Assembly: GCA_902775605.1 (NCBI GenBank)
Contig: CACYNE010000035.1
Location: 1 to 47,850, forward strand
Direction: 5' to 3'
Source of the DNA: an uncultured Prevotellaceae bacterium
GTDB lineage: Bacteria > Bacteroidota > Bacteroidia > Bacteroidales > Bacteroidaceae
Length of the DNA: 47,850 nucleotides
Shown: one piece after another, positions 22,556 to 47,650 of the stretch
Layout: the number at the start of each line of letters is the position of its first letter
Position numbering within the stretch: position 1 is the stretch's first letter
Position numbers and translations under genes: made by a program
The notes under the pieces: model-generated
The model's input: only the letters and a program-made list of their open reading frames with translations
Databases searched by the model: none
Told to the model about the DNA's origin: nothing

Positions 22556-25500
22556 ATGGGTAAAAAGTTTACTTTATCATTGTTAGTGTTGGCAGCCATG
22601 CTGCTGGCATTACCAATTCAGGCCCAGAATGCTTTTGTTGCCAGGAAGGCTCTTCCTTCTAAGGTGATGAAAGGCATACATGGCCAGGAGTTAAAGAAAG
22701 GCTACACCTTCGCTGCAAAGAATGTGAAGGAAGTGGTTGCTCAAGCTCGTCTGACTGCAGAGCAGAAGGCAGAGATTGATCGTATTGAACTCGCCAAGTT
22801 GTGGGAGAACAACATGGAGCGTATTCAGGATGGCAAATTTAGTCGCTTGGTATGTGCTTCTTTCAACGAAAGCGCACAGTCATTGAAACTTAATGCTCCT
22901 GTTAGCAATCGTTTCAATGCTCCTAAGAAGGCTGAGACAAAAGATGAGCATGGTATCATCACAGAGCCAGGCGAGGGCGTAGTGAAAGTATATACTGTTA
23001 CAGGTAGTGGATATAAGTATAGCGGCCAGGCTACAACACAGGTTGCTCAGAGTGGTACGACTCAGATTATTGAGAGCGAGGATGGTACCGTCTATATTAA
23101 GGATATCGTCTCTACTTATAAAACTGGTGCTTGGGTTAAGGGTACCAAGAATGGTAACACAATTACTGTGCCTGCTAAGCAGCCAATTAATTATAACAGC
23201 GATTATGATGCAACTTTGAGTCCACGCTGGGCTGCAGGTTCTGGTATTTCTAATCCCTCAGCTGCAGATGAAACTGCCGAGAACTTTACCTTTGTTGTAG
23301 ATGAGGCAGCAGGTACTATCTCTCTGCAGGGAACCAGTGAAAACTTGTTTATGGCAGTGTTGTGGGATGATGATGATTCTTATAGCGGTAATGGTGTTTA
23401 TGGCACCGTTTACACCTATGACCACGATTATGCTGCTCCAACCACAGTGACCGTAACTCCTCCCGCAGGTCTGGAGACTGAGACTTGGTATGCTAGTGGT
23501 CATACCTATACCCAAAGCACTGGTCAGGTGGCATTTGAGAGTACTATCAAAGTTGGATTCGATGGTAATGACGTTTATCTGCAGGGTGTGTTCAGCAACT
23601 TCCCCGATGCTTGGATGAAGGGTACTATCAATGGTACAACCGTTACTTTTGCTGGCTTGCAGGTTCAAGGTACTTACGCTTCTACCTATACCATCTATGC
23701 TACTGGTGGTGATAACTCAGGTCTTATTGACTACGTCATGACCTATGATGCAGAAAACAAAGTGCTCAGTTCTGAAAATGCCCTGTTCGCCAATGCAGCA
23801 GTGGATCAAATTTATTATCTGACTTATGTAACCGATTTGACAATCGCTCAGGCTGCTCCTGCTGAGGAGGAAGCTACTACTGCAGCTCCTGTTGATGTTC
23901 TTCCTTATGAAAATGCATTGAATACTGCAGATTTGTTTGGCGAGTTTGGTGTTATTGATAGCAATAAGGACGGTAAGACTTGGACTGTTAATGCGAAGGG
24001 TGCCCAGTACTCTTTTAGTTCTGCTAATGACGGTGATGACTGGCTCGTTTCTCCTGCTATTAAGCTGGAGGCTGGTAAGAGGTATCACTTCGCTATGGAT
24101 GCTGCAGCTGCTGCGGCTAAATATCCTGAGCGTGTGGAGGTGAAGTTGGGCACTGAGCCTAAGGCTTCTGCTTTCACCACAGAAGTTATTCCTGCTACTG
24201 TTATTGACTTCACAGATTTCCAGACTCTTGAAAATGAGGCTGTTGTTGTCGGCGAGACTGGTTATTATCATTTTGGTATTCACGCAATTTCAGATAAAGA
24301 TGAATACAACCTTTATGTGACCAACTTCCTTGTAGAGGCTGGTGTTGATGATGCAGCTCCTGCTGCTGTTACCGACTTTGACGTTGTTGCTACTGCTGGT
24401 AAATTAGAAGCTACTATTAGCTTCAAGGCTCCTGTTCTGACTGCAGGTGGACAAGAACTGGCTTCTATTGATAGTATTAATGTTAAGCGTGATGGTAAGG
24501 CCATTGTATCTCTCAAGAACGTTGTTCCTGGTGCAGATGCTCAGTATGTTGATGCTGCTGAGGATTTGACGATAGGTGCTCACGTTTATCAGGTGATTGC
24601 ATACAATGCAGCAGGTGCTGGCGTGAAGAGTGAAGAGAAGAGCGTGTTCCTCTCTGCTGTTCTGGAAGTTCCTACATCTTTTGATTTGACTCAGCAGAGT
24701 GTCTTCGATTTGTTCCAGGTGATTGATGCAAATGAAGATGATGAGACATGGTCCTGGAGTTCTTCTTATGGTACAAACTATTCTTATAGCGAATCTTTGG
24801 CTGCTGATGACTATCTGGTTGCAGCACCTGTTAAATTTGAAGCAGGTAAGAACTACAAGGTCGTTGTAACTGCAAATGCTGCAAGTACAAGCTATCCCGA
24901 GGCATTCCGCGTGCTTGTTGGTAAGGAGGCTACTGTTGATGGCTTGACTATCCTGGCTGCTGATACCACATGGGTAGAAACGAAGGAACTGGAGGATTAT
25001 GAGAGTGAGTTCACTATTGCTGAAGATGGAACCTACTATGTAGCAATCCAGGCAGTAAGCCCAGCCAACATGTGGCGCCTGAATGTGACTAAACTGTCTA
25101 TTGAGAAGGGTGCTGATCCTAAGGCTCCTGCAGTAGTAGATGAGTACAAGGTTATGTCTGGCGTGAAGGGTGCGAACTGGGCTGTGGTATCATTCAAGGC
25201 TCCTGCTAAGGCAATTGATGGTACTGATCTGACAGAAAATATGTCAATCGATATCCTGCGTGGTGATTCTCTCATTCAGACTTTGGAAGATGTAGCTCCT
25301 GCTGAATTCAAGAGCTATAAGGATGAAGACGTAGAGTCAGGTTTCAATACTTATCAGGTGATTGCTCGCAACTCTTATGGTCCTGGTAAGAAGAGTGATA
25401 AGGTTAAGGTATTCGTTGGTATCGATACACCTGCTGACTTGGCAGGATTGACCGCTACAGACAATGCTACTTCTATTGGCTTCGCATGGGATAAGGTTGG

Positions 25501-27547: not shown

Positions 27548-27570
27548 TCAATCAACACTGATAAAAACTG

Positions 27571-27603
27571 GGGGGCACGAGACTGCTCGTGCCCCCTGTT
27601 TTT
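27571..27603 (+). terminator. Terminator after giant surface protein 2
   Basis: Perfect 11-bp arms gggggcacgag and ctcgtgccccc enclose loop actg and are followed by tgttttt. Confidence 0.92.
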
Positions 27604-27632
27604 CCAAAAACACAGTAATTATATATTAAGGT

Positions 27633-29867: not shown

Positions 29868-29885
29868 TATTTGTATAGATAACAG

Positions 29886-29926
29886 AAAAAGACGCAGGAA
29901 CCTCGCGGTTTCTGCGTCTTTTTTGG
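29886..29926 (+). terminator. Terminator after the C10 protease gene
   Basis: The arms aaaaagacgcaggaacc and ggtttctgcgtctttttt pair with one mismatch around loop tcgc and end in a T-run. Confidence 0.88.
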
Positions 29927-29958
29927 ATAAAAATACATGGAGTGTGATTTTTATTTGT

Positions 29959-29966
29959 TACCTTTG
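29959..29966 (+). promoter_or_regulatory. -7 box TACCTTTG for the AWVKGT-module secreted protein
   Basis: TACCTTTG lies 26 bases before the ATG at 29992. It shows that the longer frame beginning at 29923 cannot be the true start. Confidence 0.8.
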
Positions 29967-29991
29967 CAGCCCCAAAATGGAAAATGCAAAA

Positions 29992-31482
29992 ATGAAAAGA
30001 TTTGTTTTATTGATGATGACCCTGATGCTCACGGTAGCATCATGGGCCCAGGATGACGTGGTGGTGACACCACCAACTGATTTGCAGACCGAGGAGTGGC
30101 TGCTTACTGCTCAACGCTATGATCCCACAGAATATACTGTGGAGGCTGTTCAGACCTTGAACATTGGTGTGAAAGGTCAGGACGTGTATGTTCAGGGACT
30201 GAATCTGTATTTGCCAGAGGCATGGGTGAAAGGCACCATGGAGAATGGTCGTGTGACCTTCTCTGCCAACCAGTATTATGGTTCGTTGGCTGACGACGAA
30301 GGCACAAGTTATGAGACCTATTTCGCTGGCTGTGACGAGTCGTGGTTCGATGGCGTTTCAACACTGACTCCCATTGACGTGACCTTTACGGTAAACGAGA
30401 CTGGCGATTGCTGGACCACAGCCACAGTGTTGGTTGTCAATACCCTTACCGATGGTATTGCTGGTTTCGATTATCTGAAGGATGTGGTTCTTTCCAAGCC
30501 TTACGATGTGGTTGCCACACCTCAGGCTCCGACCATTGCTTACTATATGCCTTATGATAACAGTGAAGGCTATGGCGGCGTGTCGCTGGACTTCCCTCCC
30601 CTGGACGTGAATGGTAAGCCGCTGCTGACCAGTAAGCTGAGCTATATTCTATATAAAGATGTGGAGAAGGTAATCTCGCCCATTGTGATTCCTGCGCAAC
30701 AGGAAGATGGTGAATCCTTTGTTGATATGACGGAGATTCCATATAACTATACTGATGGCTATAATATCGAGGCCCATGGCTATGCTGCTTACTTCTATGA
30801 GCCCAGCTCTGCATTCAACCGTATCGGTGTGCAGGCCATCTATCGTGGTGGCAATGAGGAGCGCATGTCGGAAATCAGTTGGTTGAATCTCCAGCCGTAT
30901 GCTGATGAGGCTGTTATCTTCGACTTCAATGCGATGGACAAGGACACGACACCTGTGTCAACCAATTCTTCGAATGCAGGTGACATCACTGAGGACAAGG
31001 TGTTGCAACAAGGGAATGTCACGCTGACCATCTCTCCCTGTGAGGGAGGCAATACGGCCAACCGCTACTGGGTTGATTATAATCTGCAGGCCATTCAGTT
31101 GCGCTTGTATGGTGGAAAACTGACTTTTGAGGTGCCCGCCGATTGCACCATTGAAAAAATATATTTCTATGCTGCCGACTGGAATGACTATAACGAGTTC
31201 GATTGTGGCGAGTTCTCTGATGATCTGGTGTGGACGGGTTCTCACCAGAAGGTTGTGCTTACCATTGATAATAGCAAACCCAATACCAAGTTAAATAAGA
31301 TTGCAGTGGTTGTGAAAGAAGAGAGCACGGGCATCTGTACAACCTATGAACTCCCCGTTGAGACGCTGCAGGTGTTTGACCTCCAGGGACGTCAGCTTCA
31401 GGGAGCTGTCAAAGGTATGGTTATTGAACAGATTCGCATGGCTAACGGTCAGGTGAAAACCATTAAGCGTCTTCGCAAATAA
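29992..31482 (+). CDS. Secreted protein with AWVKGT module and T9SS-type tail
   Basis: Starting at 29992 (MKRFVLLMMT) the product has 496 residues and a signal peptide ending at SWAQ (20). An ATG at 29977 is also possible; the promoter box excludes the frame start at 29923. Residues about 22-175 form the module shared with the giant paralogues: VTPPTDLQTEEW, then QDVYVQGLNLYLPEAWVKGT and GRVTFSANQYYG. The middle part holds beta-rich sequence with no family I recognise. The end, TLQVFDLQGRQLQG to GQVKTIKRLRK, resembles a T9SS sorting tail. It stands alone between a terminator and the rplM promoter. Function is unknown; a carbohydrate- or matrix-binding role would be a guess. Confidence 0.75.
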   Translation: MKRFVLLMMTLMLTVASWAQDDVVVTPPTDLQTEEWLLTAQRYDPTEYTVEAVQTLNIGVKGQDVYVQGLNLYLPEAWVKGTMENGRVTFSANQYYGSLADDEGTSYETYFAGCDESWFDGVSTLTPIDVTFTVNETGDCWTTATVLVVNTLTDGIAGFDYLKDVVLSKPYDVVATPQAPTIAYYMPYDNSEGYGGVSLDFPPLDVNGKPLLTSKLSYILYKDVEKVISPIVIPAQQEDGESFVDMTEIPYNYTDGYNIEAHGYAAYFYEPSSAFNRIGVQAIYRGGNEERMSEISWLNLQPYADEAVIFDFNAMDKDTTPVSTNSSNAGDITEDKVLQQGNVTLTISPCEGGNTANRYWVDYNLQAIQLRLYGGKLTFEVPADCTIEKIYFYAADWNDYNEFDCGEFSDDLVWTGSHQKVVLTIDNSKPNTKLNKIAVVVKEESTGICTTYELPVETLQVFDLQGRQLQGAVKGMVIEQIRMANGQVKTIKRLRK

Positions 31483-34653: not shown

Positions 34654-34677
34654 TTTGCAACAAAAAGTATAAAAATG

Positions 34678-34710
34678 AATCGGCATTGTTTGCACAATGC
34701 CGATTTTTTT
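34678..34710 (+). terminator. Terminator after tsf
   Basis: The arms aatcggcattgt and acaatgccgatt enclose loop ttgc and are followed by a T-run. The loop also supplies the TTTG that can act as the -33 element of the next promoter. Confidence 0.9.
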
Positions 34711-34711: not shown

Positions 34712-34719
34712 TATCTTTG
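34712..34719 (+). promoter_or_regulatory. -7 box TATCTTTG for the partner-switching operon
   Basis: TATCTTTG lies 29 bases before the ATG at 34749, with TTTG at 34689-34692 inside the tsf terminator. This is the only clear promoter found before 42819 in this direction. Confidence 0.82.
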
Positions 34720-34748: not shown

Positions 34749-35162
34749 ATGAGAAAGGAAATTCGCATAAAGAACCAGGTTAAGGAGCTTGAACATGTGG
34801 CCCGCTTCGTTGAGGAAATCGGCGAAGAACTAGGGCTTGACATGGAGATGCAAATGAATCTGAATCTGGTGATGGAAGAAATGGTTTCCAACGTCATTTT
34901 CTATGCCTATCCTCGAGAAACGGATGCAACGATAGAGTTGATGGCAGAAAGTGACGGCAAGGAATTGACTTTTGTTCTAAGTGACCAAGGGCGCGCGTTT
35001 GACCCTACTCTGAAAGAAGATGCCGATATGGATATTAACCCCGCCGAGCGTGATTTGGGCGGTATGGGCATCTTTATTGTGAAAAATATTATGAACCAAG
35101 TGACCTATCAGCGTTTGGAAGGCAAGAATCTTCTAACCATGAAAAAAGAGATTAAAGGTTAA
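34749..35162 (+). CDS. RsbW-like serine/threonine kinase or anti-sigma factor (HATPase)
   Basis: The 137-residue product is a stand-alone GHKL ATPase of the RsbW/SpoIIAB type. The N-box lies in NLNLVMEEMVSNVIFYAYP, the G1 box in SDQGRAFDP and the G2 box in GGMGIFIVKNIM. Such proteins phosphorylate a STAS partner and hold a sigma factor or other target. Here the STAS gene is next, 34 bases downstream, so they probably form a kinase-substrate pair. The target it releases is unknown. It is the first gene after the promoter at 34712. Confidence 0.92.
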   Translation: MRKEIRIKNQVKELEHVARFVEEIGEELGLDMEMQMNLNLVMEEMVSNVIFYAYPRETDATIELMAESDGKELTFVLSDQGRAFDPTLKEDADMDINPAERDLGGMGIFIVKNIMNQVTYQRLEGKNLLTMKKEIKG

Positions 35163-35196
35163 TAGGATATAGTGAACAGTTAAGAAATTTACGATT

Positions 35197-35505
35197 ATGA
35201 CACAGATATTGAAAGAAGATGGCAAGACCATCATTAAGACCGGCAGTCGCATTGATACGATTAACGCTCCTCAGTTTGAGAAGGATATTGAACCTGCTAT
35301 TCAGGAAGCCGGTGTCAACTTGGTTATGGACTGTGATGAACTGACATATATGGCCAGCTCGGGTTTGCGTATCATTCAGAAAACCATGCGTGCAGTGATG
35401 ATGAAGCGTGGTACGTTCAAAATGGTTAATGTAAGCCCGGAAATTTATAAGGTGCTGAACATGACGGGCTTCACCAAGTTTATGGCTGTAGAACAAAAAG
35501 CATAA
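35197..35505 (+). CDS. STAS-domain anti-anti-sigma factor-like protein
   Basis: The 102-residue protein is a single STAS domain. The phosphorylation loop is YMASSGLRII, with Ser54 or Ser55 as the site modified by RsbW-type kinases and cleared by RsbU/SpoIIE-type phosphatases. Both kinds of partner are in this operon. Predicted cytoplasmic. It lies between the kinase gene and the histidine kinase gene, which starts 10 bases after its stop. Confidence 0.93.
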   Translation: MTQILKEDGKTIIKTGSRIDTINAPQFEKDIEPAIQEAGVNLVMDCDELTYMASSGLRIIQKTMRAVMMKRGTFKMVNVSPEIYKVLNMTGFTKFMAVEQKA

Positions 35506-35515
35506 AAGCATCTCG

Positions 35516-36433
35516 ATGGCAGACGACATCAACCAACTCCGTGAAGAGCTTCAGCAGCTGCGTGAAGACTATAAGACCTTGGAGCACAACTTCGACATCA
35601 TGTCGGAGGGCTATCAGGAGTCTCTCCTGCTTTATGACAAGCTGGAGGAAACCTATCATGAGTTGGAGGAGACCAATAAGCAGTTGGATGTAGCCCGTCA
35701 GCGCGCAGAAGAGGCTTCACGTATGAAGACCAACTTCATTCAGCAAATCTCCCATGAGATTCGTACGCCTCTGAATATCCTTAATGGCTTTACTCATATC
35801 CTCACTACACCTGGCATGACACTCGATGCCACCACGCAGCAGGAGGTAACCAAAGGCATTGATGATAATACTAATCGCATCACTTCTCTTGTTAATAAAA
35901 TGCTTGAATTGGCCGATGCCAATAGTAGTGTGGAGTTGGAACGCACAGACCATGTACTTGCCGTGCAGATTGCTGCTCAGGCAGCTGATGATAGTCGCAT
36001 AACTGTGGCATCTCACTTGACCTTTGATCTTGATTTGGCCGAAGGGACTGATATGGTTATGCTTCAAACCAATCTGCAACAAGCCACTCGTGCTCTCTCG
36101 CTGTTGCTCGACAATGCGAGGAAGTTTACACAGCCTGCCGAGGCTGCAGTCAACGCTGGTGCCGCAGTGAAGCAAGGGAAGGTCGTTCTGCACCTCATGT
36201 TGCAGGACCAGTTGATGAACTTTGTCGTGGAGGACAATGGTATTGGTGTTCCTGCTGAAGAGGCAGAACATATCTTTGACGAGTTCGTACAACTCGATGA
36301 CTATTATGATGGCACTGGCATTGGTCTTACCGTGGCTCGTAGTATTGCGCGCCGTCTGGGGGGCAATATTGTGCTTGATACTTCTTATTCTGGCGGTGCC
36401 CGTTTTGTCTTTAGTCTGCCAGTGAATGATTGA
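35516..36433 (+). CDS. Soluble sensor histidine kinase
   Basis: The 305-residue product has no signal peptide or membrane segment. Residues 3-70 form a coiled coil rich in Glu, Gln and Leu. The HisKA domain has the H-box FIQQISHEIRTPLN with His80. The HATPase has N-box LLDNARKF, G1 VEDNGIGVP and G2 GTGIGLTVARS. No response regulator or receiver domain is encoded next to it. It may sense through a partner bound to the coiled coil, or feed the partner-switching pair upstream. The operon link is inferred from the 10-base gap. Confidence 0.92.
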   Translation: MADDINQLREELQQLREDYKTLEHNFDIMSEGYQESLLLYDKLEETYHELEETNKQLDVARQRAEEASRMKTNFIQQISHEIRTPLNILNGFTHILTTPGMTLDATTQQEVTKGIDDNTNRITSLVNKMLELADANSSVELERTDHVLAVQIAAQAADDSRITVASHLTFDLDLAEGTDMVMLQTNLQQATRALSLLLDNARKFTQPAEAAVNAGAAVKQGKVVLHLMLQDQLMNFVVEDNGIGVPAEEAEHIFDEFVQLDDYYDGTGIGLTVARSIARRLGGNIVLDTSYSGGARFVFSLPVND

Positions 36434-36494
36434 TTGGGAACAGAAAGAATCTTTTTTAAGGGACCATTAAAACTCAATAATAATATAATCTGTT

Positions 36495-37925
36495 ATGAAA
36501 CCTTTTAAGAAAATCTTAATCTTGTGTGTTGCCTTTGTGCTGATGGCAACAAAAGTGTTGGCTGGTGATATTGTCATCGTCAAGAAACTGAATGGCGTCG
36601 TAAGTTCTGATGCAGGTAATGTGGAAGCCGTTGTGAACGAGGCAGTTTGTACGCTGACTGTAACTCCTGCTGATGGCTTTTTCATCAGTTCTATTACGGC
36701 AGAGAAGACTGTTAGTGGTGATCTTGCTCAAGCGCGTGGTGATGCCCCTTCCATGGATAACTTCCTGACAGTTACTCCTGTAGATGCTAATGCAGATCCC
36801 TGTGGAACAACTACATGGACATTTACAATGCCCGATGGTGAGTATGATGTTGAAGTCGTGGCCGATTTCCAGCAGTGTACCTCTATCAATGGGGCTGTTG
36901 TCACTCTGTCTATACCAGAGACAGGTTATGTCTTCGATGGTCAGGCAAAAGAGCCTCGTGTAGCAAGTGTTATTTTAAGTGGCACTACTATTAGTCCCTC
37001 TAACTATGAAGTCAGCTATAGTGAGAATATCAATGCAGGAACAGCCACTGTTACTGTGACAGGTCTGCGTAACTATACAGGTACAGCCTCTGCAGAGTTT
37101 ACCATTGCTCCCAAATCGTTGTCAGATGATATGATCTGGAGCGAAGGAGAGTGGTTCATTTATGATGGCGAAGCAAAGACATTGGCCGATGGCATGTTTG
37201 GTCTTTATGATGAAGAGACAGAACAAAGTTTGGAATATGATAAAGATTACTCTATTGTCTATGCAAATAATATCAATGTAGGTACAGCTACAGCTACCGT
37301 TACCGGTAATGGCAATTACCAGGGTACGCTTGTTCACAGTTTTGAAATTGTCCGTGAGTTGAATATCAGTTTCTCTGAGACAAACGAATGGGCCACATAC
37401 TATGCCGAAGAGGATTTGGAACTTCCTGAGGAGCTGCGTGCTTATATCGTGACAGGAATAGGTGAGACCTCTGTCTCATTGGAAGAAATCAATTTCATTC
37501 CTAAACATCAGGGCGTCCTGCTGACTCCCGTAGAGGTGGCTCCAGAGGTTATCTTTGCTTTTGCAAACAAAGAACCTTCTATGGAGATTACCGACAACCT
37601 ACTAAAAGGATGTTCTGAGAATACGGCTGTGTCTTCTTTGGCTTCTGATGATACAAGTATCTATGTCCTCTATAATGATGAGTTCGTGAAGGCCACCAAG
37701 GGTAATATCGCTGCCTTCCGTTGCTATCTTGAGGTAAGCTCTGTTGTCGAGGCTTCAGCTCGTTTGGCCATTTCTTTTGGTGACGATACAACAGGTATCC
37801 ATACTCAGCCCACCGTTTCTGACCTCAAACAAAACAACCTTTACGACCTCAGTGGCCGTCGTTTGCAGGTGATGCCCACTGCTAAGGGTCTGTATATTAT
37901 GAATGGAAAAGTCGTTGTCAAGTAA
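36495..37925 (+). CDS. Secreted protein with Ig-like/MBG repeats and T9SS tail
   Basis: The 476-residue protein has a signal peptide ending near VLAG (24). Residues about 25-125 form a beta domain (DIVIVKKLNGVVSSDAG to FTMPDGEYDVEVVADF) that is related to the start of the next gene product. Two Ig-like units follow with YVFDGQAKEP, NINAGTATVTVTG and NINVGTATATVTG. The C-terminal domain ends NLYDLSGRRLQ to GLYIMNGKVVVK, a type A T9SS tail. It probably is a surface or secreted protein. It lies 61 bases after the histidine kinase gene and 23 bases before its paralogue, with no promoter or terminator seen between them. Confidence 0.82.
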   Translation: MKPFKKILILCVAFVLMATKVLAGDIVIVKKLNGVVSSDAGNVEAVVNEAVCTLTVTPADGFFISSITAEKTVSGDLAQARGDAPSMDNFLTVTPVDANADPCGTTTWTFTMPDGEYDVEVVADFQQCTSINGAVVTLSIPETGYVFDGQAKEPRVASVILSGTTISPSNYEVSYSENINAGTATVTVTGLRNYTGTASAEFTIAPKSLSDDMIWSEGEWFIYDGEAKTLADGMFGLYDEETEQSLEYDKDYSIVYANNINVGTATATVTGNGNYQGTLVHSFEIVRELNISFSETNEWATYYAEEDLELPEELRAYIVTGIGETSVSLEEINFIPKHQGVLLTPVEVAPEVIFAFANKEPSMEITDNLLKGCSENTAVSSLASDDTSIYVLYNDEFVKATKGNIAAFRCYLEVSSVVEASARLAISFGDDTTGIHTQPTVSDLKQNNLYDLSGRRLQVMPTAKGLYIMNGKVVVK

Positions 37926-37948
37926 TTATACATTCTGACGGGCGCGGA

Positions 37949-40723
37949 ATGAAATCATTACTGAGACATATCTGTCTGTTATCCCTCGTGCTCCTGTATG
38001 CTTCAGGAGCACGAGCCGATGGCATCATTTCCATTGTTACCCAGCTCGATGGGGTAGGGACAACCGCTGGTGGACAAATCACAGCACAGGTAACCGATGG
38101 CGTCTGTACACTGACAGCAACACCCTGCGATGGCTGTCTTATAACTGCCGACGAAATCAGGGTTCTAAAGGTTGTTGCAGGTGAACAGGCACAAGCCCGT
38201 CATGATGCGCCATACTTGTCGGAACCCATCTCACTGACGCCTGTCTTGGCATACGATCCCATGGCAACGTCCATCTTTTCGTTTGAGATGCCAACTGGTG
38301 AGTTTGATGTGGAAGTTTCCGCCAATTTCCGTGTCTCTACGGTCAAGTCCTATCCCTTGTGGGTGGGTGGTGTTCATGTAAATGGATTTAACAAAGATAA
38401 TATTCTGAATGATAAGAATGCCTCTTTGCGTTTCAATCCATTAACGAACACCCTCTCGCTCTATGGTGCAACTGTAGAGATAGCTGATACCACCGCGTTT
38501 GTTAGAAGCTACCTTGATGAATTGACCGTTGATCTTCATAGTACTAGTTTTCTGTCCTTCACGAACGGGTTCGTGTCAGGTGTGACGGGGCGTTCTGTAC
38601 CTCTTACGTTTGTGACAAATGTAGATGCACCAGGTCAGTTAAGCTGGGAATGTGTCTCTTCCGGCACTTTCTCTCAAGGTTTTAAAGTGATTTATTCATT
38701 CCCCCTTTCTTTGCAAGAATCAGGCCATCTGATTTCTCAGACTCCTGTGAAAGACTATGCCCTGAAGATAGGCGACGTTCAAGTGAACAGCGTCAATAGT
38801 GCGGATGTTTTGAGCGATGGCACGGTGAAGTTTGATGGTAATCATACTTTGGTGCTGACCAATGCCTGTCTTTCTGAAACCATTACGAGCGGTCTTGATA
38901 ACCTGATTGTGTTTCTGATAGGTGATAACGTCATCAATGGTGTGGAAGATCTCATCACATCTACCGTGTCTCAGGCAGGCCTCGTCTTCACCACCAGTCC
39001 TACGACGTCTGGTAAACTGACGTTGAACAAGGCGGGCGGTGAATTCTTCAAAGGCTTTTCAGAGCCAGTGCTCGAGTGGAATCTGGCGTGTCTTACCAGC
39101 CACCCTGACACTATGACGATTGGCGTGCCTGTACCACCGATTATCGATGAGGAAAATCCTACGGAAAATAATAACATCGGTGATAATATTACCGATGGAG
39201 ATGATCTTCAGAATAACCTTATAGGAGGAGTCCTTTTCAATCTGGATGAAGATGGCTATAATGATGATGACGGCATCCCTGGTGTAATCCTCAGTTCCGC
39301 TATTCTTCAGAGTGATGTTGACGAAGCGACAAACTTGGTGCCGGGCTCCAATAGTTTTGCTGAGACATTCTCTGGTCTTGTCTTTATGATACCTCCGGGC
39401 ACGGGAAAGATTCTTCTGACAGTAAAGGTCCGTGAAGATACCCAGTTGGCTGTTCAGATAGGAACCAATGACCCATATATCATCGGCCCCTCTGAGGATT
39501 ATCAGGATTACCAGATTGAGTATGAATGTCTTGATGCTACCTATGTTTATCTCTATTCACTGTTGCCCGAATCGGTAGCAGAATCCCGTGCAGATATCCC
39601 CTTCCGTGGTAAGGTGCTTCATGGCCATGTGAAGGTGACCTCTGTTGGTGCATCCTCCCAGTCAATGGTGAGCGAAAACAGTTATTCCGAGGAGACCAAT
39701 ACTGTTACGAATAAAGTAAAGCTCTTCAGCCTGCCTACTTCAGCCATCACTGCCGATGGCAATGGTGTGGTGCTCTCTACTATCGATGTTGACGATAGTG
39801 CGTCGAACGCCCGTGCTCTCCGTCGTGCCACAACTCAGAAAAAGATTACCGAACTCGCTCCCACTGTGTTTGATGAGTTGGACAAGAGTGCCATTCTCTA
39901 TCTGGACCTCAGCGAAACTGATATTTCTGATTTCACCGTCAATCGCTCCTCTGGCCTGATGAGTGGCTTTGGAAGTAATACCCTTATTTACATGCCAGAG
40001 GCAAATGATGATGGAGGAGATGAGAATGTTGTTCTTGGCGATTCCTGCACCCTTCTTTCCCTCTATGATGATGCTCCCTTCCGTGCACCTCTCGACTTCG
40101 TGGCGGCGCAGGCCACGTTGCATCGCGACATGGCGGCTGGTCAGGTCACCACCATTCTTTTGCCTTTTGCCTTGCCGCAGACCTATGCCGAAACGCTGGG
40201 AGACTCGCTGGGAGACTTCTATACGTTTAACAGAGTTGAAGGGCAGTATGCCGTACTGAATCCCAAACTCACCACTGCGCCTGCTGCCAACATACCCTAT
40301 GTGTTCCAGTCAAAGACCAATGATATGCTCTCTGTGACCAATGCCGCAGTCAAGGCTTCTGGTGCTTCCTCTGTTGCCCAGGGCTTGTTGGTAGGCACCT
40401 ATCAACCTCTTTCATGGGAGTCCGGTCAGAACGATACCTATGTCATTGCCGATACACCTGTCGGTGATCTCACCGATGCGCAGTTTGTTCGTGTCGATGC
40501 CGGCATGTCGTTGCCGTCGTTCAGTGCTTATCTGCGTGTTGATGATGCAACTTCACCCCTTACCCTTGCCATTGATGGTCATATTCCCAATGCTATCAGT
40601 GAGTTGGTGGTGTCTTCTTCGAAGGCAGATGTTCTCTACGACCTCCAAGGTCGTCCACTTCATGATGTTCCGCTTAAGAAAGGTCTTTATCTTTATCATG
40701 GCCGCAAGGTCCTGGTTCAATGA
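37949..40723 (+). CDS. Large secreted protein with T9SS tail, related to the upstream gene at its N-terminus
   Basis: The 924-residue protein has a signal peptide ending near GARA (23). Residues about 24-125 share their pattern with the previous protein (DGIISIVTQLDGV; FEMPTGEFDVEVSANF). The middle carries two similar beta segments (KSYPLWVGGVHVNGFNKDN; KDYALKIGDVQVNSVNSAD) and an Asp/Asn-rich acidic stretch near 400-430 that might bind calcium. The C-terminal part includes TTILLPFALPQTYAETLGD. It ends VLYDLQGRPLHD to KGLYLYHGRKVLVQ, a T9SS tail. The gene is 11 bases from the SpoIIE-type phosphatase gene. Function is unknown. Confidence 0.8.
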   Translation: MKSLLRHICLLSLVLLYASGARADGIISIVTQLDGVGTTAGGQITAQVTDGVCTLTATPCDGCLITADEIRVLKVVAGEQAQARHDAPYLSEPISLTPVLAYDPMATSIFSFEMPTGEFDVEVSANFRVSTVKSYPLWVGGVHVNGFNKDNILNDKNASLRFNPLTNTLSLYGATVEIADTTAFVRSYLDELTVDLHSTSFLSFTNGFVSGVTGRSVPLTFVTNVDAPGQLSWECVSSGTFSQGFKVIYSFPLSLQESGHLISQTPVKDYALKIGDVQVNSVNSADVLSDGTVKFDGNHTLVLTNACLSETITSGLDNLIVFLIGDNVINGVEDLITSTVSQAGLVFTTSPTTSGKLTLNKAGGEFFKGFSEPVLEWNLACLTSHPDTMTIGVPVPPIIDEENPTENNNIGDNITDGDDLQNNLIGGVLFNLDEDGYNDDDGIPGVILSSAILQSDVDEATNLVPGSNSFAETFSGLVFMIPPGTGKILLTVKVREDTQLAVQIGTNDPYIIGPSEDYQDYQIEYECLDATYVYLYSLLPESVAESRADIPFRGKVLHGHVKVTSVGASSQSMVSENSYSEETNTVTNKVKLFSLPTSAITADGNGVVLSTIDVDDSASNARALRRATTQKKITELAPTVFDELDKSAILYLDLSETDISDFTVNRSSGLMSGFGSNTLIYMPEANDDGGDENVVLGDSCTLLSLYDDAPFRAPLDFVAAQATLHRDMAAGQVTTILLPFALPQTYAETLGDSLGDFYTFNRVEGQYAVLNPKLTTAPAANIPYVFQSKTNDMLSVTNAAVKASGASSVAQGLLVGTYQPLSWESGQNDTYVIADTPVGDLTDAQFVRVDAGMSLPSFSAYLRVDDATSPLTLAIDGHIPNAISELVVSSSKADVLYDLQGRPLHDVPLKKGLYLYHGRKVLVQ

Positions 40724-40734
40724 CGTAACATTCC

Positions 40735-42819
40735 ATGAAGCGCATCATCCTGTTCCTCCTCGCCGTTCTGCTTCTATGGCCCTCGCATCCCACAGCAGCC
40801 ACCCCTTTAGGCCGTTGGGTCGCTCGTCATTTCTCTGCTCATGGTGACCACCGTATCAAGAAACTCGAGGCGCAGTTCTATGCCAGTCAGGATACCGATG
40901 ATGTGGACTATCAGCTCCGATGTTTGGATAGCCTGATTGCTGAGTCCAGAAGACAGAAAGCCAGTGTGGTCGAGGTCAATGCCCTGGCCGAGCGTGCCTC
41001 CCTTTTCTATAATTATGACATGAACGACTCCGTGCTCATCGCCGTTCGCCGTGACATGGAGCGTGTCAAGGATTTAGGGCAGTGGCAGGTCTATTATGAG
41101 ATGTGGGGACTTGTGGCCAACACCTACGTCTTTATGGGACAAAACAACATGGGTATTCGCGAGACAAAGGCGATGTTCGACGATGCCAAGCAGCGAGGCG
41201 ATGTGCTGGGTATGGGTCAGGCCAATTGTATCATGGGAACTGCTTATAGCAATCTGCGCAACTTTGACCAAAGTGTCGAGGTGTTTGAGAAATCCCTGGC
41301 CGAGCTGTCCAAGTTAAAGCCGTCCCCCTCGGTCATGCCCGATGTCTATACCTATTATGGCGATGCCCTCGGTGAGATGAAAGACTATGTCAGACTTGGT
41401 GAACTTACCAAGCGTTGGGATGCTTTCCTCAAGCGTTTCTTTGTGGACCATCATCTCGAAGGCACCTCCACTGGCGATCTCTATCTGTCCTATTATTACT
41501 TGGCTTGTGCCCAGGCTGCGATGGGACAGAACCAACTTAGTGCTGCTGCCCAGCATCTGTCTGAGGCTCGCCGCCACATAGCCAATATGGACAATGTGCT
41601 TGGTGGCAAGTGGCTCTACTATTCTGCCCAGCTCAATCTCTTGCGAGGTAATTATGAGCAGGCCCTTCAGGAGAACGCGCAGCGCCTCCAGCTCTCAGAT
41701 ATGAGCGACCGTTCCATGGAGATTATCGTTAAGCAGCAGCGTGCAGAGATCCTTGATAAGATGGGCCGTCATGTTGAGGCCGGTCAGATTTTCCGTACTA
41801 TCTATTTCCTCAACGACTCGCTTAATGCCCAGGAGACCAAGGGACAACTCAACGAGATGAATACCATCTTCCAGGTGGGAGAGAAGGAACTCGAGAACGT
41901 CCGCCTGCAACAAGAGAACGAACGCGCCCAACTTGAAAACGAGCGAGCCCAGTTCCGTTTCATCATCATTGTCATCTCGCTCATCTTCGTTTCCCTGGCG
42001 GTGTTTATCGTCTTCCGCCTCCGTGCCGCCCGCAAACTCAAGCAGGCCCACGAAAAACTATTGGTGGCCTATGACCAGTTGGAGGAGACCACCACAGCCA
42101 AAGAGCGTATTGAAAGCGAACTCCGCATTGCTCGCGACATCCAGATGGGTATGGTGCCCAACACCTTCCCAGAAGACGAAGGGCTGGATATCTATGCCTT
42201 GATGACGCCAGCCAAGGCTGTTGGTGGCGATCTCTACGACTTCTTCATCATCGACGATACCCTCTATTTCTGTTTGGGTGATGTCAGTGGCAAGGGCGTG
42301 CCTGCCTCACTCTTTATGGCCCAAAGCATCCGTTTGTTCCGTGCATTGGCAAAGCAGCAGATGACGCCCGCCGATATTGCCACGCGCCTGAATGCCGAAC
42401 TCTCAGAAAACAATGAGAGTGGCATGTTTGTCACTATGTTTATTGGTGTGGCCAATCTCCATACAGGTCATCTCGACTTCTGTAATGCCGGTCATAACCC
42501 GCCCGTCTTCCGCGGTGAGTTCATTGAGATGGAACCCAACGCCCCCATTGGCTTGTGGCCGGAGCTTGACTATATTGGCGAAAGCATTGACGATATCAAA
42601 GGCGAGCCCCTGTTTATCTATACCGATGGACTCAACGAGGCTGAGAATGCTGCCCAGGAACAGTTTGGCGATGATCATCTGTTGGATGTTATCCGTAGTC
42701 ATCCTTATGAGAGTGCTCGCCAGACCGTAGAACTCCTACAACACGAGGTGGCCGTCCATGTGGCAGGTGCAGAGCCGAGCGACGACCTGACGATGCTCTG
42801 TCTGAAGATTAAGGCATAA
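40735..42819 (+). CDS. Membrane TPR protein with SpoIIE/RsbU-type PP2C phosphatase domain
   Basis: The 694-residue protein has a signal sequence (about 1-23), a long helical TPR region (about 40-380) predicted to lie outside the cytoplasm, one membrane segment near 408-427 (FIIIVISLIFVSLAVFIV), a short coiled coil, and a C-terminal PP2C_SIG domain. The metal-binding acids are in GGDLYDFF, GDVSGKGVPA, YTDGLNEAEN and SDDLTMLC. RsbU/SpoIIE-type enzymes remove phosphate from STAS proteins; the STAS protein at 35197 is the likely substrate. The external TPR region could sense an envelope signal. It closes the operon, with a terminator just after. Confidence 0.93.
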   Translation: MKRIILFLLAVLLLWPSHPTAATPLGRWVARHFSAHGDHRIKKLEAQFYASQDTDDVDYQLRCLDSLIAESRRQKASVVEVNALAERASLFYNYDMNDSVLIAVRRDMERVKDLGQWQVYYEMWGLVANTYVFMGQNNMGIRETKAMFDDAKQRGDVLGMGQANCIMGTAYSNLRNFDQSVEVFEKSLAELSKLKPSPSVMPDVYTYYGDALGEMKDYVRLGELTKRWDAFLKRFFVDHHLEGTSTGDLYLSYYYLACAQAAMGQNQLSAAAQHLSEARRHIANMDNVLGGKWLYYSAQLNLLRGNYEQALQENAQRLQLSDMSDRSMEIIVKQQRAEILDKMGRHVEAGQIFRTIYFLNDSLNAQETKGQLNEMNTIFQVGEKELENVRLQQENERAQLENERAQFRFIIIVISLIFVSLAVFIVFRLRAARKLKQAHEKLLVAYDQLEETTTAKERIESELRIARDIQMGMVPNTFPEDEGLDIYALMTPAKAVGGDLYDFFIIDDTLYFCLGDVSGKGVPASLFMAQSIRLFRALAKQQMTPADIATRLNAELSENNESGMFVTMFIGVANLHTGHLDFCNAGHNPPVFRGEFIEMEPNAPIGLWPELDYIGESIDDIKGEPLFIYTDGLNEAENAAQEQFGDDHLLDVIRSHPYESARQTVELLQHEVAVHVAGAEPSDDLTMLCLKIKA

Positions 42820-42820: not shown

Positions 42821-42861
42821 AGAAAAGAGACGACCTTGCGAGTCGTCTCTTGTTGTTTCTT
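42821..42861. terminator. Two-way terminator between the phosphatase gene and the minus-strand lipoprotein gene
   Basis: Arms agagacgac (42826-42834) and gtcgtctct (42842-42850) pair around cttgcga, with A-rich flank to the left and T-rich flank to the right. It serves both convergent genes. Confidence 0.85.
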
Positions 42862-43466: not shown

Positions 43467-44084
43467 ATGAAGATATTTGCAGTAGGAATGAACTATGCGC
43501 AGCACAATAAAGAGCTCGATGGTACGTTATATAAACCAGAGGCCCCTGTGATTTTCACCAAGGCCGACTCTGCGCTGCTGAAGGATGGTAAGCCGTTTTT
43601 CATCCCCGACTGGAGTCAGCGGGTGGACTATGAGACCGAACTTGTGGTACGCATCTGCCGATTGGGCAAGGGCATTCCCGCCCGCTTTGCCCATCGTTAT
43701 TACGATGCTGTCACGGTTGGCATTGACTTCACTGCCCGCGACTGGCAGGAGCAGGCCCGTCAGAAGGGACTGCCCTGGGAAATATGCAAGGGCTTCGACG
43801 GTTCAGCCGTCATTGGTCAGTGGGTTGAGAAGGAGAAGTTCCGCGATGTGCAGGCTCTGCAGTTCCACCTAGATATCAACGGCACCACGGTGCAGCAGGG
43901 ATGCACCAGTGACATGCTCTATAAGATTGATGAGCTCATCGCCTACATCTCCACCTACTTCACCTTGAAGACGGGCGACCTGCTCTACACCGGTACTCCC
44001 GTAGGCGTGGGGCCTGTCCATATCGATGACCATCTGGAAGGATGGATAGAAGACCGCAAGGTGCTTGACTTTAATTGCAAATGA
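43467..44084 (+). CDS. Fumarylacetoacetate hydrolase (FAH) family protein
   Basis: The 205-residue protein starts MKIFAVGMNYAQHNKEL and has the FAH/FAHD1 pattern: a first metal ligand in VDYETELVVRI, then GIDFTARDWQ, GKGFDGSAVIG-like spacing (CKGFDGSAVIG), and the closing TGTPVGVGPVH. Such enzymes cleave or decarboxylate acylpyruvates or oxaloacetate; the substrate here is not known. The start follows the promoter at 43426. Its stop overlaps the porU start as ATGA, so porU translation is probably coupled to it. From memory, a FAH-family gene also precedes porU in Porphyromonas gingivalis. Confidence 0.92.
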   Translation: MKIFAVGMNYAQHNKELDGTLYKPEAPVIFTKADSALLKDGKPFFIPDWSQRVDYETELVVRICRLGKGIPARFAHRYYDAVTVGIDFTARDWQEQARQKGLPWEICKGFDGSAVIGQWVEKEKFRDVQALQFHLDINGTTVQQGCTSDMLYKIDELIAYISTYFTLKTGDLLYTGTPVGVGPVHIDDHLEGWIEDRKVLDFNCK

Positions 44085-47000
44085 AGAGACTTTTAACGAT
44101 ATTGCTCGTTGTGATTGGCTGTGTAGGAAATATGGCCGCACAGCGTTTCTTCAACCTCACGGCTGATGAGGTGAAGATAGACTCTGTGCTTCCTTCTTTC
44201 AGTCTGCAGCTGCCGTTAGGTCCCCAATATGCCGACTCCATCTATGAAGTCAGCATTCTTTATCCAGAGTTTATGGAGATGTCGCAGGCTGATGTGGCCC
44301 GCTATCAGGTCATCACGCCAGAACGCCCTGCCTCTCTGCCGCAGATAAGTCAGTATGTCAGTGTGGTGCGCAAGCAGGGAGTGCTCAACATCTCTTTTGT
44401 GCCCATTGTTTTTCGTGAAGGAAAGTATCAGAAGCTGGTCAGCTTTATGCTCGATATTAAAGCCGCTGCCTGCAGTCATTCAAGAAAGCTCAAACCTCAA
44501 ACCTCCAATCTCAAACTATCGTCTCCTCGTTATTCCTCCAAATCCGTCCTTGCCACAGGTCGCTGGGCTAAGATCCGCATCCCCGAGACTGGTGTCTATC
44601 AACTCACTGATGCATTAATCCGCAATGCTGGTTTCACCGACCCTTCGAAGGTGCGCGTCTATGGCTATGGCGGTGCCATGCAACCCGAGAAACTCACTGC
44701 CGACTATCTGGCAGAGACCGACGATTTGAAAGAGGTGCCCACCTGCACTGTTGGTGGTCGTCGTCTGTTCTATGCCGTTGGTCCCGTCAATTGGGAGACA
44801 GCCTCTACGGTGGCCCGCACCCGCAATCCTTATTCCAACTACGGCTATTATTTCCTGACCGAGGCCGATGGCACACCCCTGTCTGTGGACAGTGCTGCCT
44901 TCCGTGCTTCGTTCTATCCCTCGCCCAACGATTATCACGATCTTCACGAGGTGGATGACTATGCGTGGTATCATGGCGGTCGTAACCTTTATGAAGGCAC
45001 TGCCCTGTCCACCAGCACCGCTCGCAACATCACCATGCCCGCTATCCACGAAACCAGTGTCAAGGTTGACATCAATCTCTCGTTTGATAAGATGTTCGAG
45101 GCCACACTGCTTCTTAATGGCACCACGCTGGGTACGCTGAAGCCCAACACCTCGGTGCTCACCCTCAGTGGTGTCCCTCGCGACGGCTTGGCCTTTGCCA
45201 CACAGATGACATGGACCTTCGATTTGCCTGCTGAGGCCATCCATCGCGATAGTCAGAATACCTTCACCCTCCGCCTTAGTTCAGGTTCCGAGGTTCGTCT
45301 TGACTGGCTTTCGTTGCGCTATGGTACTCCTAAGGCAATGCCCGCCCTTACCTCGGCAGAGTGGTCGGTGCCCGAATACCTGTATCAGATTACGAATCAG
45401 AACCACCATGCCGACCCGCAAGTCGACATGGTTATCATCATACCCACCAGTCAGAAGTTCCTGAGTCAGGCCCAACGCCTCAAGACCCTTCACGAGACCT
45501 ACGACAGTTTGCGCGTAAACATCGTGCCTGCCGACGAGCTCTATAACGAGTTTTCTAGCGGCACCCCCGATGCCAATGCCTATCGTCGCTACATGAAGAT
45601 GCTCTACGACAGGGCAGAGACCACTGCCGACCAGCCCCGCTACTTGTTGCTCTTTGGTGACGGAGCATGGGATAACCGCATGCTCACCAGCGACTGGCGC
45701 AATGAGTCGCCTGATGATTTCCTGCTTTGCTATGAGAGTGACAACTCCTTCAGTCAGTTCTATTGTTACGTCAGTGATGATTATTTCTGTCTGCTCGATG
45801 ATGACGAGGGAGGTAAATTCCCACAGGAGGGTATCGATGCTGCCGTCGGTCGCCTGTCGGCCCGCACCCTGGCCGAGGCCACTGCGATGGTCGATAAGAT
45901 TGTGGATTATCGCACCAATAATCATGCCGCCTCTTGGCAGAACACCATCTGCATCCTAGGAGATGACGGCGACCAGAACCGCCACATGTTGGACGCTGAT
46001 TCTGTGGCCAGTGTCGTGGCCAAGAACTATCCCTCTTTCGATTTGAAGAAAATCTATTGGGATGCTTACACCCGTGAGGTCACCTCTACAGGCAATCGCT
46101 ATCCCGAGGTTGAGCAGTTGGTGCGCCAGCAGATGCAGCGTGGTGCCTTGGTGATGAACTACTCTGGTCACGGATCCGTTTATGTCATGTCTCACGAGCA
46201 GGCTATCAAGAAGGAATACTTCTCTGAGCGCATGTCGATGAACCTTCCCCTGTGGGTCACCGCTTCGTGTGATATCATGCCCTTCGATGGCCAGGAGGAG
46301 AACTTTGGTGAGTTGGCCATGTATAATGACTATGGCGGCGCAGTTGCATTCTTTGGCACTACCCGCACCGTTTATGCCAATTATAACTGTCTGCTTAACA
46401 AAGCCTTCATGAAGTTGGTGCTCAGCACCGATGCCAATGGCCGTCGTCTCACCATGGGCGAGGCTGTGATGCAGGCCAAGAACTCTTTTACGTCGAGCTA
46501 TACGGAGATGGAGCGCATCAATAAGGTTCACTACACTCTCCTTGGCGACCCCGCCTTGATGCTGGCCATGCCCACTGTGCAGGCCGTGGTCGATAGCATT
46601 AACGGACAGCCTGCTACAGGTGCTCTTCAGCAGCTCAAGGCCGGTTCGGTGGTCACCGTCAAGGGACATATTGATGGCCATCCTGATTTCAATGGCTTGG
46701 CCACCCTTATCGTGCGTGATCGAGAAGAGACCGTCACATGTCGTCGTAATGATCACAATATTGATGTGGCGTTCACTTATAAGGACCGTCCCGCCACTAT
46801 CTATACCGGTCGCGACAGTGTGAGAAACGGACAGTTCACTTTCCAGTTCTCCGTACCTCAGGATATCAGTTACTCCGATCAGTCGGGGCTGATCCTTGTC
46901 TATGCCATTAGTAATGACAAGGCGCTCGAGGCTCATGGCATCAACAGCTCGTTCCATCTCTCTGGTTCAGTCGATTCGCCCAACGATGGCATCGGTCCCT

Positions 47001-47650
47001 CTATCTATTGTTATATGAACAGCGAGCACTTCATGAATGGTGGCACCGTCAATGCTACACCGTATTTCTATGCCGAGCTGTCCGACAAGGATGGTATCAA
47101 CGTGGCAGGCGGTGGCATTGGCCACGATCTTGAACTCATCATCGATGGCGACATGAACATGGCCTACAACCTCAACGATGCGTTCCAGTATGACTTCGGT
47201 GACTTCCGTACGGGTAGGGTAGGCTATACGCTTCCCACACTCACCGAGGGCACTCATAAACTGCTGTTCCGTGCATGGGATATGCTGAACAATTCATCAA
47301 CGGCTGAACTGCAGTTCACCGTTGATGCCCGTCAGACACCTTTGCTTCAGAGCGTTATCTGTACCAAGAATCCTGCCACCACCTCAACGCAGTTCCTGAT
47401 TACCCACGATCGCACGGGCAGTCAGATGGACATCGAACTTGAGATATTCGATGCTTCGGGTCGCAAACTGTGGGGCCGTACGGAAACGGGCATTCCCACC
47501 GACCAGACCTACACCATCGACTGGGACCTGACCACCAGCAGTGGCAGTCGCCTGCGCACTGGTGTCTATCTCTATCGTGTTCTCATCAGCAGTAATGGCA
47601 GCAGTCAGGCTTCTCAGGCTAAGAAATTAATTGTGTTGGGCAATAATTAA
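44081..47650 (+). CDS. porU: Type IX secretion system sortase PorU
   Basis: PorU is the outer-membrane gingipain-like (C25) enzyme that cuts T9SS sorting tails and attaches cargo to lipopolysaccharide. The 1189-residue protein has a signal peptide (about 1-20), a long N-terminal region, and a C25 catalytic core with His697 in NYSGHGS and Cys730 in VTASCDIMPFD. The 33-residue spacing matches gingipains. An Ig-like part and a C-terminal T9SS-type tail follow (IFDASGRKLWG to GVYLYRVLISSNG). A 7-bp tandem repeat encodes KPQTSNLK near residue 140. It is followed by porV. Confidence 0.95.
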   Translation: MKRLLTILLVVIGCVGNMAAQRFFNLTADEVKIDSVLPSFSLQLPLGPQYADSIYEVSILYPEFMEMSQADVARYQVITPERPASLPQISQYVSVVRKQGVLNISFVPIVFREGKYQKLVSFMLDIKAAACSHSRKLKPQTSNLKLSSPRYSSKSVLATGRWAKIRIPETGVYQLTDALIRNAGFTDPSKVRVYGYGGAMQPEKLTADYLAETDDLKEVPTCTVGGRRLFYAVGPVNWETASTVARTRNPYSNYGYYFLTEADGTPLSVDSAAFRASFYPSPNDYHDLHEVDDYAWYHGGRNLYEGTALSTSTARNITMPAIHETSVKVDINLSFDKMFEATLLLNGTTLGTLKPNTSVLTLSGVPRDGLAFATQMTWTFDLPAEAIHRDSQNTFTLRLSSGSEVRLDWLSLRYGTPKAMPALTSAEWSVPEYLYQITNQNHHADPQVDMVIIIPTSQKFLSQAQRLKTLHETYDSLRVNIVPADELYNEFSSGTPDANAYRRYMKMLYDRAETTADQPRYLLLFGDGAWDNRMLTSDWRNESPDDFLLCYESDNSFSQFYCYVSDDYFCLLDDDEGGKFPQEGIDAAVGRLSARTLAEATAMVDKIVDYRTNNHAASWQNTICILGDDGDQNRHMLDADSVASVVAKNYPSFDLKKIYWDAYTREVTSTGNRYPEVEQLVRQQMQRGALVMNYSGHGSVYVMSHEQAIKKEYFSERMSMNLPLWVTASCDIMPFDGQEENFGELAMYNDYGGAVAFFGTTRTVYANYNCLLNKAFMKLVLSTDANGRRLTMGEAVMQAKNSFTSSYTEMERINKVHYTLLGDPALMLAMPTVQAVVDSINGQPATGALQQLKAGSVVTVKGHIDGHPDFNGLATLIVRDREETVTCRRNDHNIDVAFTYKDRPATIYTGRDSVRNGQFTFQFSVPQDISYSDQSGLILVYAISNDKALEAHGINSSFHLSGSVDSPNDGIGPSIYCYMNSEHFMNGGTVNATPYFYAELSDKDGINVAGGGIGHDLELIIDGDMNMAYNLNDAFQYDFGDFRTGRVGYTLPTLTEGTHKLLFRAWDMLNNSSTAELQFTVDARQTPLLQSVICTKNPATTSTQFLITHDRTGSQMDIELEIFDASGRKLWGRTETGIPTDQTYTIDWDLTTSSGSRLRTGVYLYRVLISSNGSSQASQAKKLIVLGNN
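44489..44516. repeat. 7-bp tandem repeat within porU (consensus ctcaaac)
   Basis: Four units, ctcaaac, ctcaaac, ctccaat and ctcaaac, lie end to end. They encode part of the linker between the first beta region and the SVLATGRWAKIRI segment of PorU. Confidence 0.8.

Follow-up and report, generated by a model that had tools for sequence, protein, structure and literature searches.

In partner switching, a kinase of the RsbW family phosphorylates a serine of a STAS-domain protein, and a PP2C phosphatase removes the phosphate; the usual targets of such parts are sigma factors. We describe such a set in a 47,850-nt stretch of DNA from an uncultured Prevotellaceae bacterium (the window), where it stands beside a gene with a conserved N-terminal coil, here called the coil gene, and two secreted-protein genes (SecA and SecB) with tails of the type IX secretion system (T9SS) type. 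The RsbU-RsbV-RsbW and SpoIIE-SpoIIAA-SpoIIAB systems of Bacillus are built from equivalent parts, namely a GHKL serine kinase, a STAS protein and a PP2C phosphatase, and the canonical residues are shared. The cassette in the window differs from them in that no sigma factor was found adjoining and the phosphatase has a predicted periplasmic tetratricopeptide repeat (TPR) sensor. In addition, a coil-bearing gene nearly always stands next and surface cargo is often found downstream. A three-part Rsb switch is not new in Bacteroidota, as rsbU-rsbV-rsbW was reported in the marine flavobacterium MS024-2A (PMC2668756). Compared by description, that cluster lies downstream of a PAS-domain gene and an adenylate cyclase and was modelled as controlling sigma-24, and the accessible part of the paper mentions neither a coil gene nor T9SS cargo (PMC2668756).

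In the SiaABCD system of Pseudomonas aeruginosa, which has no sigma factor, a phosphatase, a kinase and a switch protein are joined by a neighbouring effector whose stalk is a coiled coil. According to the accessible part of the source, SiaC in its unphosphorylated form binds to conserved motifs in the stalk of SiaD (PMC8457831). The SiaABCD effector is a diguanylate cyclase, whereas that of the cassette is a histidine kinase (HK), an ATPase type, a coil or a PP2C domain. No sequence homology between SiaD and the cassette coil was detected, and the likeness is one of analogy only. HmpUVW of Nostoc punctiforme, which is tied to hormogonium development, is likewise a U/V/W set with STAS output on an undefined effector. 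It is cyanobacterial, and T9SS cargo and a coil gene are unmentioned in the accessible parts of its descriptions (PMC6495340, PMC8256260). As for the cargo, Prevotella intermedia has short C-terminal domains (CTDs) of 43-55 aa, marked by a cleavage motif of the GI type, by motif B (Y..G) and motif D (GxY), and by basic residues at the end. The accessible part of the 2025 report calls it the sole species reported with both long and short CTDs (PMC11969387). The proteins in the window carry the same short signal motifs, but they are large SecN-domain proteins of rumen Prevotella and are linked to a partner switch.

No paper joining partner switching and type IX secretion was found in a literature search that left subscription journals mostly outside, which is weak evidence of novelty. 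With the same coverage, titles and abstract starts on SpoIIE, STAS or RsbU in Prevotella, Bacteroides or Bacteroidetes described no such system. An earlier interpretation made from the letters of the window (the sequence-only reading) knew of no described system with this set. That statement stands for the coil gene and surface cargo, an arrangement which we did not find described, and falls for rsbU/V/W as such. The arrangement is a real, conserved one of known parts.

We propose, with a probability of about one half, that the locus holds a sigma-independent partner-switching cassette of rumen Prevotella, that the switch docks on the coil, and that the likely end point is T9SS surface proteins. 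Six open reading frames (ORFs) lie on the forward strand with gaps of 34, 10, 61, 23 and 11 nt (Table 1). The TTG of the promoter sits in the stem of the tsf terminator and the −7 box TATCTTTG directly follows that terminator. TTG with a −7 box of the TAnnTTTG type is what we take to be the Bacteroidota promoter form; the generic promoter scan of the window used the E. coli consensus and is of little value for this DNA. The 61 nt between the HK gene and SecA of the window contain no TAnnTTTG, and a single transcript is predicted for the six genes. ORF, Pfam and hairpin results agreed with the sequence-only reading on all six genes and the spacing between them, and also on its promoter at 34712 and its terminator. 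That reading was also right that an RsbU/RsbW/STAS set occurs without a nearby sigma factor (no sigma-factor domain in 28 ORFs scanned, a subset of the window ORFs) and that the two secreted genes are related (42% identity over 132 N-terminal columns). Its external TPR region and T9SS-type cargo likewise held, the former as a prediction and the latter in that both tails fit the short CTD and that such cargo recurs downstream in relatives.

Table 1. Features of the partner-switching locus and its surroundings in the window.
Feature	Positions	Strand	Evidence and remarks
RsbW/SpoIIAB-like GHKL serine kinase, 137 aa	34749-35162	+	Pfam PF13581 HATPase_c_2 6e-23
STAS-domain switch protein, 102 aa	35197-35505	+	Pfam PF01740 9e-17; TIGR00377 73 bits (above cut-off)
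Soluble HK, 305 aa (coil gene of the window)	35516-36433	+	Pfam HisKA 4e-14, HATPase_c 8e-19
Conserved coil motif NFDIMSEGYQESLLLYDKLEET, HK N-terminus, proposed docking segment	35516-35686	+	Coil profile
SecA, 476 aa	36495-37925	+	Signal-like N-terminus (hydropathy only), SecN domain, predicted beta-domain rod, short T9SS CTD
SecB, 924 aa	37949-40723	+	Signal-like N-terminus, SecN domain, short T9SS CTD
RsbU-like phosphatase, 694 aa	40735-42819	+	Pfam PF07228 SpoIIE 1e-44; TPR_8 0.001 (weak)
tsf terminator hairpin	34677-34706	+	Overlapped by promoter (TTG at 34690; −7 box TATCTTTG 34712-34719)
Terminator-like hairpin closing the unit	42825-42851	both	Hairpin search
tsf, 308 aa	33665-34591		
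PorU sortase	44075-47650		The one T9SS component looked at
Upstream cargo cluster	17968-31482		Cleaved-adhesin protein of 1431 aa and CARDB protein of 1691 aa, both with CTD-like tails; MBG-domain C10 protease

To collect relatives of the cassette, an RsbW alignment of 11 rows was run as a profile against 84,980 species genomes. The scan gave 228 matches, the best 80 of which were kept and, with the window, make up the 81 loci counted below. The titles of these 80 records name Prevotella, Prevotellaceae or Bacteroidales, except for L096 ('uncultured bacterium' only), and many mention goat, sheep, deer, yak, buffalo or rumen; our label 'rumen Prevotella' is based on these titles. Cultured isolates are among the carriers of the cassette (Prevotella sp. 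ne3005, L118; tf2-5, L142). The gene directly 5' of RsbW was RsbU in 67 of the 81 loci and tsf in 5; the other 9 have a different gene there. RsbU and RsbW form one ORF in L117, counted among the nine, and in the more distant L048. The window is the sole map seen in which the only RsbU is placed after the secreted genes. STAS came next after RsbW in 80/81 loci, and the coil gene next after STAS in 77/81 (76 by script and the fused L117). The exceptions were L071, L092, L106 and L125, and both L106 and L125 end inside STAS. Since the cassette recurs in 80 further loci, the find of six genes in the window is not due to chance. The sequence-only reading had suggested looking for a conserved order of the six genes in relatives; such an order is seen for U-W-STAS-coil gene, and it breaks down for the secreted genes, which are missing in four relatives at the same site.

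The core proteins carry canonical residues. In RsbW, E43, E44, N48, D79, G81, G104, G105 and G107 were invariant in the 11-row alignment, and the EE..N box was found in 81/81 loci. The phospho-acceptor-type loop of STAS reads MASSGLR in the window; SSGLR was present in 79 of the 80 loci having STAS, and L119 has STGLR. RsbU is arranged as a signal-like segment, a TPR region, a hydrophobic transmembrane stretch from residue 407, a linker and a SpoIIE/PP2C domain (507-692). The signal segment and membrane helix, judged by eye and crude hydropathy, predict a periplasmic TPR region. Its metal-site motifs in the window are GGDLYD, GDVSGKG and SDDLT, and GGD, GDVSGKG and DD were found in 67, 68 and 69 of 69 loci, respectively. 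These results support a complete RsbU/RsbW/STAS set with canonical residues and without an adjoining sigma factor. When the non-catalytic part of RsbU was searched in 20 chosen genomes, 19 matched. The best copy was near RsbW on the same contig in 14/20 and on another contig in G140 and G013. G166, G025 and G116 had only distant copies (≤33%) and G128 none; in G116 the C-terminal part of RsbU precedes RsbW at a contig end (L068). The source genome also has another RsbW, a distant one (39%), which a 598-aa ORF separates from a STAS gene (L049, G000:C6).

In the 79 loci where it could be matched, the gene that follows STAS varied far more in its enzyme than in its N-terminus. The phospho-acceptor box HE[ILMV]R[TN]P was present in 20/79. 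Another 46 genes have about 305 aa and lack the His box; most of them carry an N-terminal hydrophobic segment, and the ATPase motifs are kept (G1 and GxGL patterns in 46/46, a wide N-box pattern in 37/46). Ten encode 111-115 aa with just a hydrophobic helix and the coil, and three are cut by contig ends. The phospho-accepting His or the whole kinase is therefore gone in 56/79 loci, and the HK is not supported as an essential part of the circuit drawn in the sequence-only reading. On a joined RsbW and STAS tree the coil-gene classes need two changes, compared with 27.6 in shuffles. The window falls in a 22-row group (Shimodaira-Hasegawa-like approximate likelihood-ratio test, SH-aLRT, 99) made up of His-bearing rows and L071; the coil-only rows form a group within the His-less ones. 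This tree is a quick one with an insecure root, and two of four long outgroup rows were placed within the ingroup, where one joins the group of the window.

The coil motif, approximately NFDxxGxGYEQALLxFDKM, was matched by pattern in 76/79 loci. L083 and L108 were missed by the pattern and carry a form of the motif in which one position is Asn. The region is lacking in L125, so the motif is present in all 78 loci with a readable region. Judged from these sequences, the HK enzyme is not a constant part of the cassette, and the coil survives loss of the kinase. A coil profile of 26 rows, built from RsbW-linked loci and thus favouring close kin, matched 9/60 genomes, all within the 10 with RsbW at E ≤1e-40, and 0/50 others. 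Eleven coil places were found in total, nine of them adjoining RsbW. One genome, G018, has a copy in the order U-STAS-coil-secreted protein with no adjoining RsbW (L176) and a second, coil-HK copy with no cassette gene seen within 2 kb. In G025 the coil is fused to a PP2C domain and stands between two STAS genes. The whole chain there (G025:C4, L180/L047) reads U-W-STAS-[coil+PP2C]-STAS2, which suggests a two-step partner-switch cascade. The kinase thus varies more than the STAS-coil pair does, and this points to the coil as the probable contact of the switch.

The secreted proteins belong to no confident Pfam or NCBIfam family. SecA and SecB share an N-terminal domain (SecN), aligned in 20 rows, which within the source genome was found just in these two genes. 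Their tails have a GI/AI cleavage motif, motif B, a GxY motif D and a basic residue near the end, and measure 43 aa from GI to the C-terminus in SecA and 43 aa from AI in SecB. The P. intermedia motifs were used for tail calls because the curated CTD models (TIGR04183, Pfam) gave no match for SecA, SecB or six relatives. The fixed CTD pattern was found in 41/49 complete Sec-family ORFs, 39 with a GI-type site. Its background was 5/320 unrelated ORFs of at least 300 aa (three of the five in the window) and 0/148 core-gene ORFs. A dockerin-like tail replaces the CTD in some Sec-family members (both of L125, L136, L176); Dockerin_1 matched one L125 protein at 8.5e-8, and the other dockerin-like tails were judged by eye. 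Short T9SS-type CTDs also occur in many rumen Prevotella proteins (secreted genes, L064-L143). A structure model of SecA had a mean predicted local distance difference test score (pLDDT) of 85 and gave weak Foldseek matches to multi-domain beta rods (SbsB, protocadherins), the best with E 6e-5 and template modelling scores of about 0.1-0.2. The model of SecB was poor (mean pLDDT 68).

To count by position and avoid tail-based family membership, we took the first same-strand ORF of at least 300 aa within 1 kb after the cassette. A short CTD was found in 30/44 complete ORFs at this position as against 5/320 unrelated ORFs, where the 30/44 are mutually related loci and not independent draws. A slightly wider pattern left 30/44 unchanged with a background of 6/320. 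The other 14 were 8 unrelated ORFs, 4 PorU, L085 with a degenerate tail and L136 with its dockerin-like tail. Surface-protein genes follow the cassette in 41/70 judgeable loci, the window included: the 30 with a tail, L085, L136, seven contig-cut Sec-like ORFs, L118 (a second RsbU, then Sec) and L124 (Sec genes farther downstream). No ORF of at least 300 aa was present within 1 kb in 7 loci, including L124, and 11/81 loci were too short to judge, including L125, where Sec genes lie upstream. A secreted triplet of a long-leader, a SecA-type and a SecB-type protein stands next to the cassette in L066, L071, L084 and L085, and away from it in L151, L156, L157 and L159. In L156, RsbU directly precedes the triplet and RsbW is on another contig. 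The counts support a recurrent association of putative T9SS-type cargo with the downstream side of the partner-switch set. The sequence-only reading had named absence or replacement of the secreted genes in relatives as telling against it, and this was found in part, as other genes or a strand switch follow some cassettes.

Co-occurrence was counted in 200 genomes of the genus (RsbW at ≥70% identity, SecN at E ≤1e-10). RsbW was found in 37 and SecN in 28; 22 had both, 6 SecN alone and 15 RsbW alone (Fisher p 2e-14, a value that ignores phylogeny, with a SecN model from cassette-linked loci only and many incomplete genomes).

The distance from the coil gene to the secreted gene was measurable in 41 loci, which differ from the 41 surface-gene loci in that L071 is out and L125 in. 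Twenty look operonic: their gap does not exceed 92 nt and contains no TAnnTTTG box. In 21 the gap is at least 198 nt, and 19 of these have a TAnnTTTG box within about 165 nt of the secreted-gene start, where about 0.07 per 165 nt is expected from the window rate (41 boxes on two strands in 47,850 nt). L124 and L142 have a wide gap and no such box there. Co-transcription is therefore lineage-dependent. The single transcription unit of the sequence-only reading fits the tight gaps of the window and the 20 operonic loci, and does not extend to the loci with wide gaps. Twelve unique secreted-gene promoters gave the majority consensus TTGGTTATTTC...TATCTTTG, close to that of 50 other promoters (TTGG..ATTTC...TA.CTTTG). 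A special promoter for the secreted genes was thus unsupported, and these promoters give no evident sign of a special sigma factor. The pattern TTG[GC]NNNTNTC occurred in 10/12 secreted-gene promoters and 17/50 others, where it was chosen post hoc and several of the 12 are near-copies; a weak promoter difference of the secreted genes may exist.

These promoters bear on a canonical switch, in which RsbW would be the anti-sigma factor for one of two RpoD-like sigma factors or an extracytoplasmic function (ECF) sigma factor, unphosphorylated STAS would free the sigma factor, and the coil gene or HK would be accessory. The source genome does have two RpoD-like sigma factors (287 and 290 aa), the nearest PDB relatives of RsbW are of the RsbW/SpoIIAB type (RsbW 6m36, E 4e-4), and the post hoc promoter pattern points the same way. 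A housekeeping sigma factor is under partner-switch control in Chlamydia, according to the accessible part of the source (PMC8256260), and sigma-24 was proposed as the target, as a model, for the flavobacterial rsb genes (PMC2668756). Nevertheless, we consider a sigma target unlikely. It is opposed by the absence of sigma domains from the 28 window ORFs scanned and by the majority consensus at the secreted-gene promoters, and it leaves the nearly constant coil gene after STAS unexplained.

The cassette is found at several sites: in the interval between tsf and FAH-porU, and downstream of a 295-aa-type gene, a 248/257-aa pair or a 333-aa gene. Downstream of the unit in the window come a small opposite-strand ORF, an FAH-family hydrolase gene and the T9SS sortase gene porU. 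Among 19 searched genomes lacking a close RsbW, tsf-FAH-porU adjoin without the cassette in 7 (G002, G003, G008, G019, G020, G026, G030). FAH alone follows tsf in G010 and G017, and the remaining 10 of the 19 have something else or a sequence end. The place beside porU is therefore an insertion site and no evidence of function; a functional tie to porU as the reason for the position was ruled out by these genomes together with the clades that have the cassette elsewhere. Upstream, the tsf ORF is shorter than in most mapped relatives (331-336 aa), and only its first 301-303 residues align to them. A frame change late in the gene is probable, perhaps as a sequencing error.

The variety of sites could also mean that the cassette and the surface genes are shuffled accessory genes that share insertion sites and have no regulatory tie. 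The cassette-free genomes, the surface genes that often have their own promoter-like box or are located elsewhere, and the second T9SS-type cargo cluster upstream in the window are all consistent with this. Set against it are the enrichment of short CTDs after the cassette, although among related loci, the recurrence of the association at several sites, and one genome with U beside three Sec genes and W on another contig. We find incidental linkage slightly more doubtful than a sigma target. A phosphorelay, in which STAS or RsbW would modulate the soluble HK and this an unlinked response regulator and then surface genes, agrees with the window HK, whose HEIRTP, N, G1 and G2 boxes are all intact, and is nonetheless improbable, given that the phospho-accepting His is gone in 46/79 and the whole kinase in 10/79 cassette loci and that no response regulator adjoins the HK among the neighbouring ORFs scanned.

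Several points weigh against a sigma-independent switch that docks on the coil and acts on surface proteins. The pair of STAS and coil is broken in G015, which has U-W-STAS without the coil, and in L071, which has no coil gene. The coil profile recovered no SiaD-type chain from PDB; its top matches were repeat artefacts, and no homology of the coil to SiaD was found. Conservation of a coiled coil could serve dimerisation. As for the cargo, 29/70 loci have no following surface gene (4 FAH-porU, 11 opposite strand, 8 other, 6 without a large ORF in the next 1 kb). Of the 22 genomes with both SecN and RsbW, just 5 have the two within about 15 kb of each other. In addition, secreted-gene promoters carry the majority consensus of other nearby genes.

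For the sigma-independent cassette we propose the following course. The predicted periplasmic TPR region of RsbU would sense the state of the envelope and activate the PP2C domain, which would dephosphorylate the STAS protein. RsbW, judging from its canonical residues, would re-phosphorylate STAS with ATP. Phosphorylation and dephosphorylation of STAS are thus inferred for the cassette from sequence. In one phospho-state the switch protein would dock on the N-terminal coil of the product of the next gene; most likely it is STAS (or RsbW) that binds there, by analogy with SiaC on SiaD. Docking may alter the activity or assembly of the coil-bearing protein. That protein is an HK in the window; sister lineages have a His-less ATPase type or just the coil with its membrane anchor, and a more distant cassette has a PP2C phosphatase in its place. 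At the likely end point, large surface proteins that the T9SS exports would be deployed, their genes lying in the unit, behind their own adjoining promoter, or elsewhere. It is plausible that the cassette controls these surface proteins.

Tentatively, and with odds that we would place on the lower side, the coil may be a portable docking tag. The output behind the tag would have been exchanged (HK, His-less ATPase, PP2C), or deleted in one lineage to leave a membrane-coil scaffold, and the switch would set how a variable family of giant T9SS surface proteins is produced or exported in rumen Prevotella. Partner switches without a sigma factor often have unknown outputs, and here the coil motif beside the STAS gene is one specific candidate contact. 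Natural variants are available in which the attached enzyme is intact, lacks the phospho-His, is replaced or is gone. If the proposed course is correct, a signalling switch would be tied to T9SS surface proteins in rumen bacteria.

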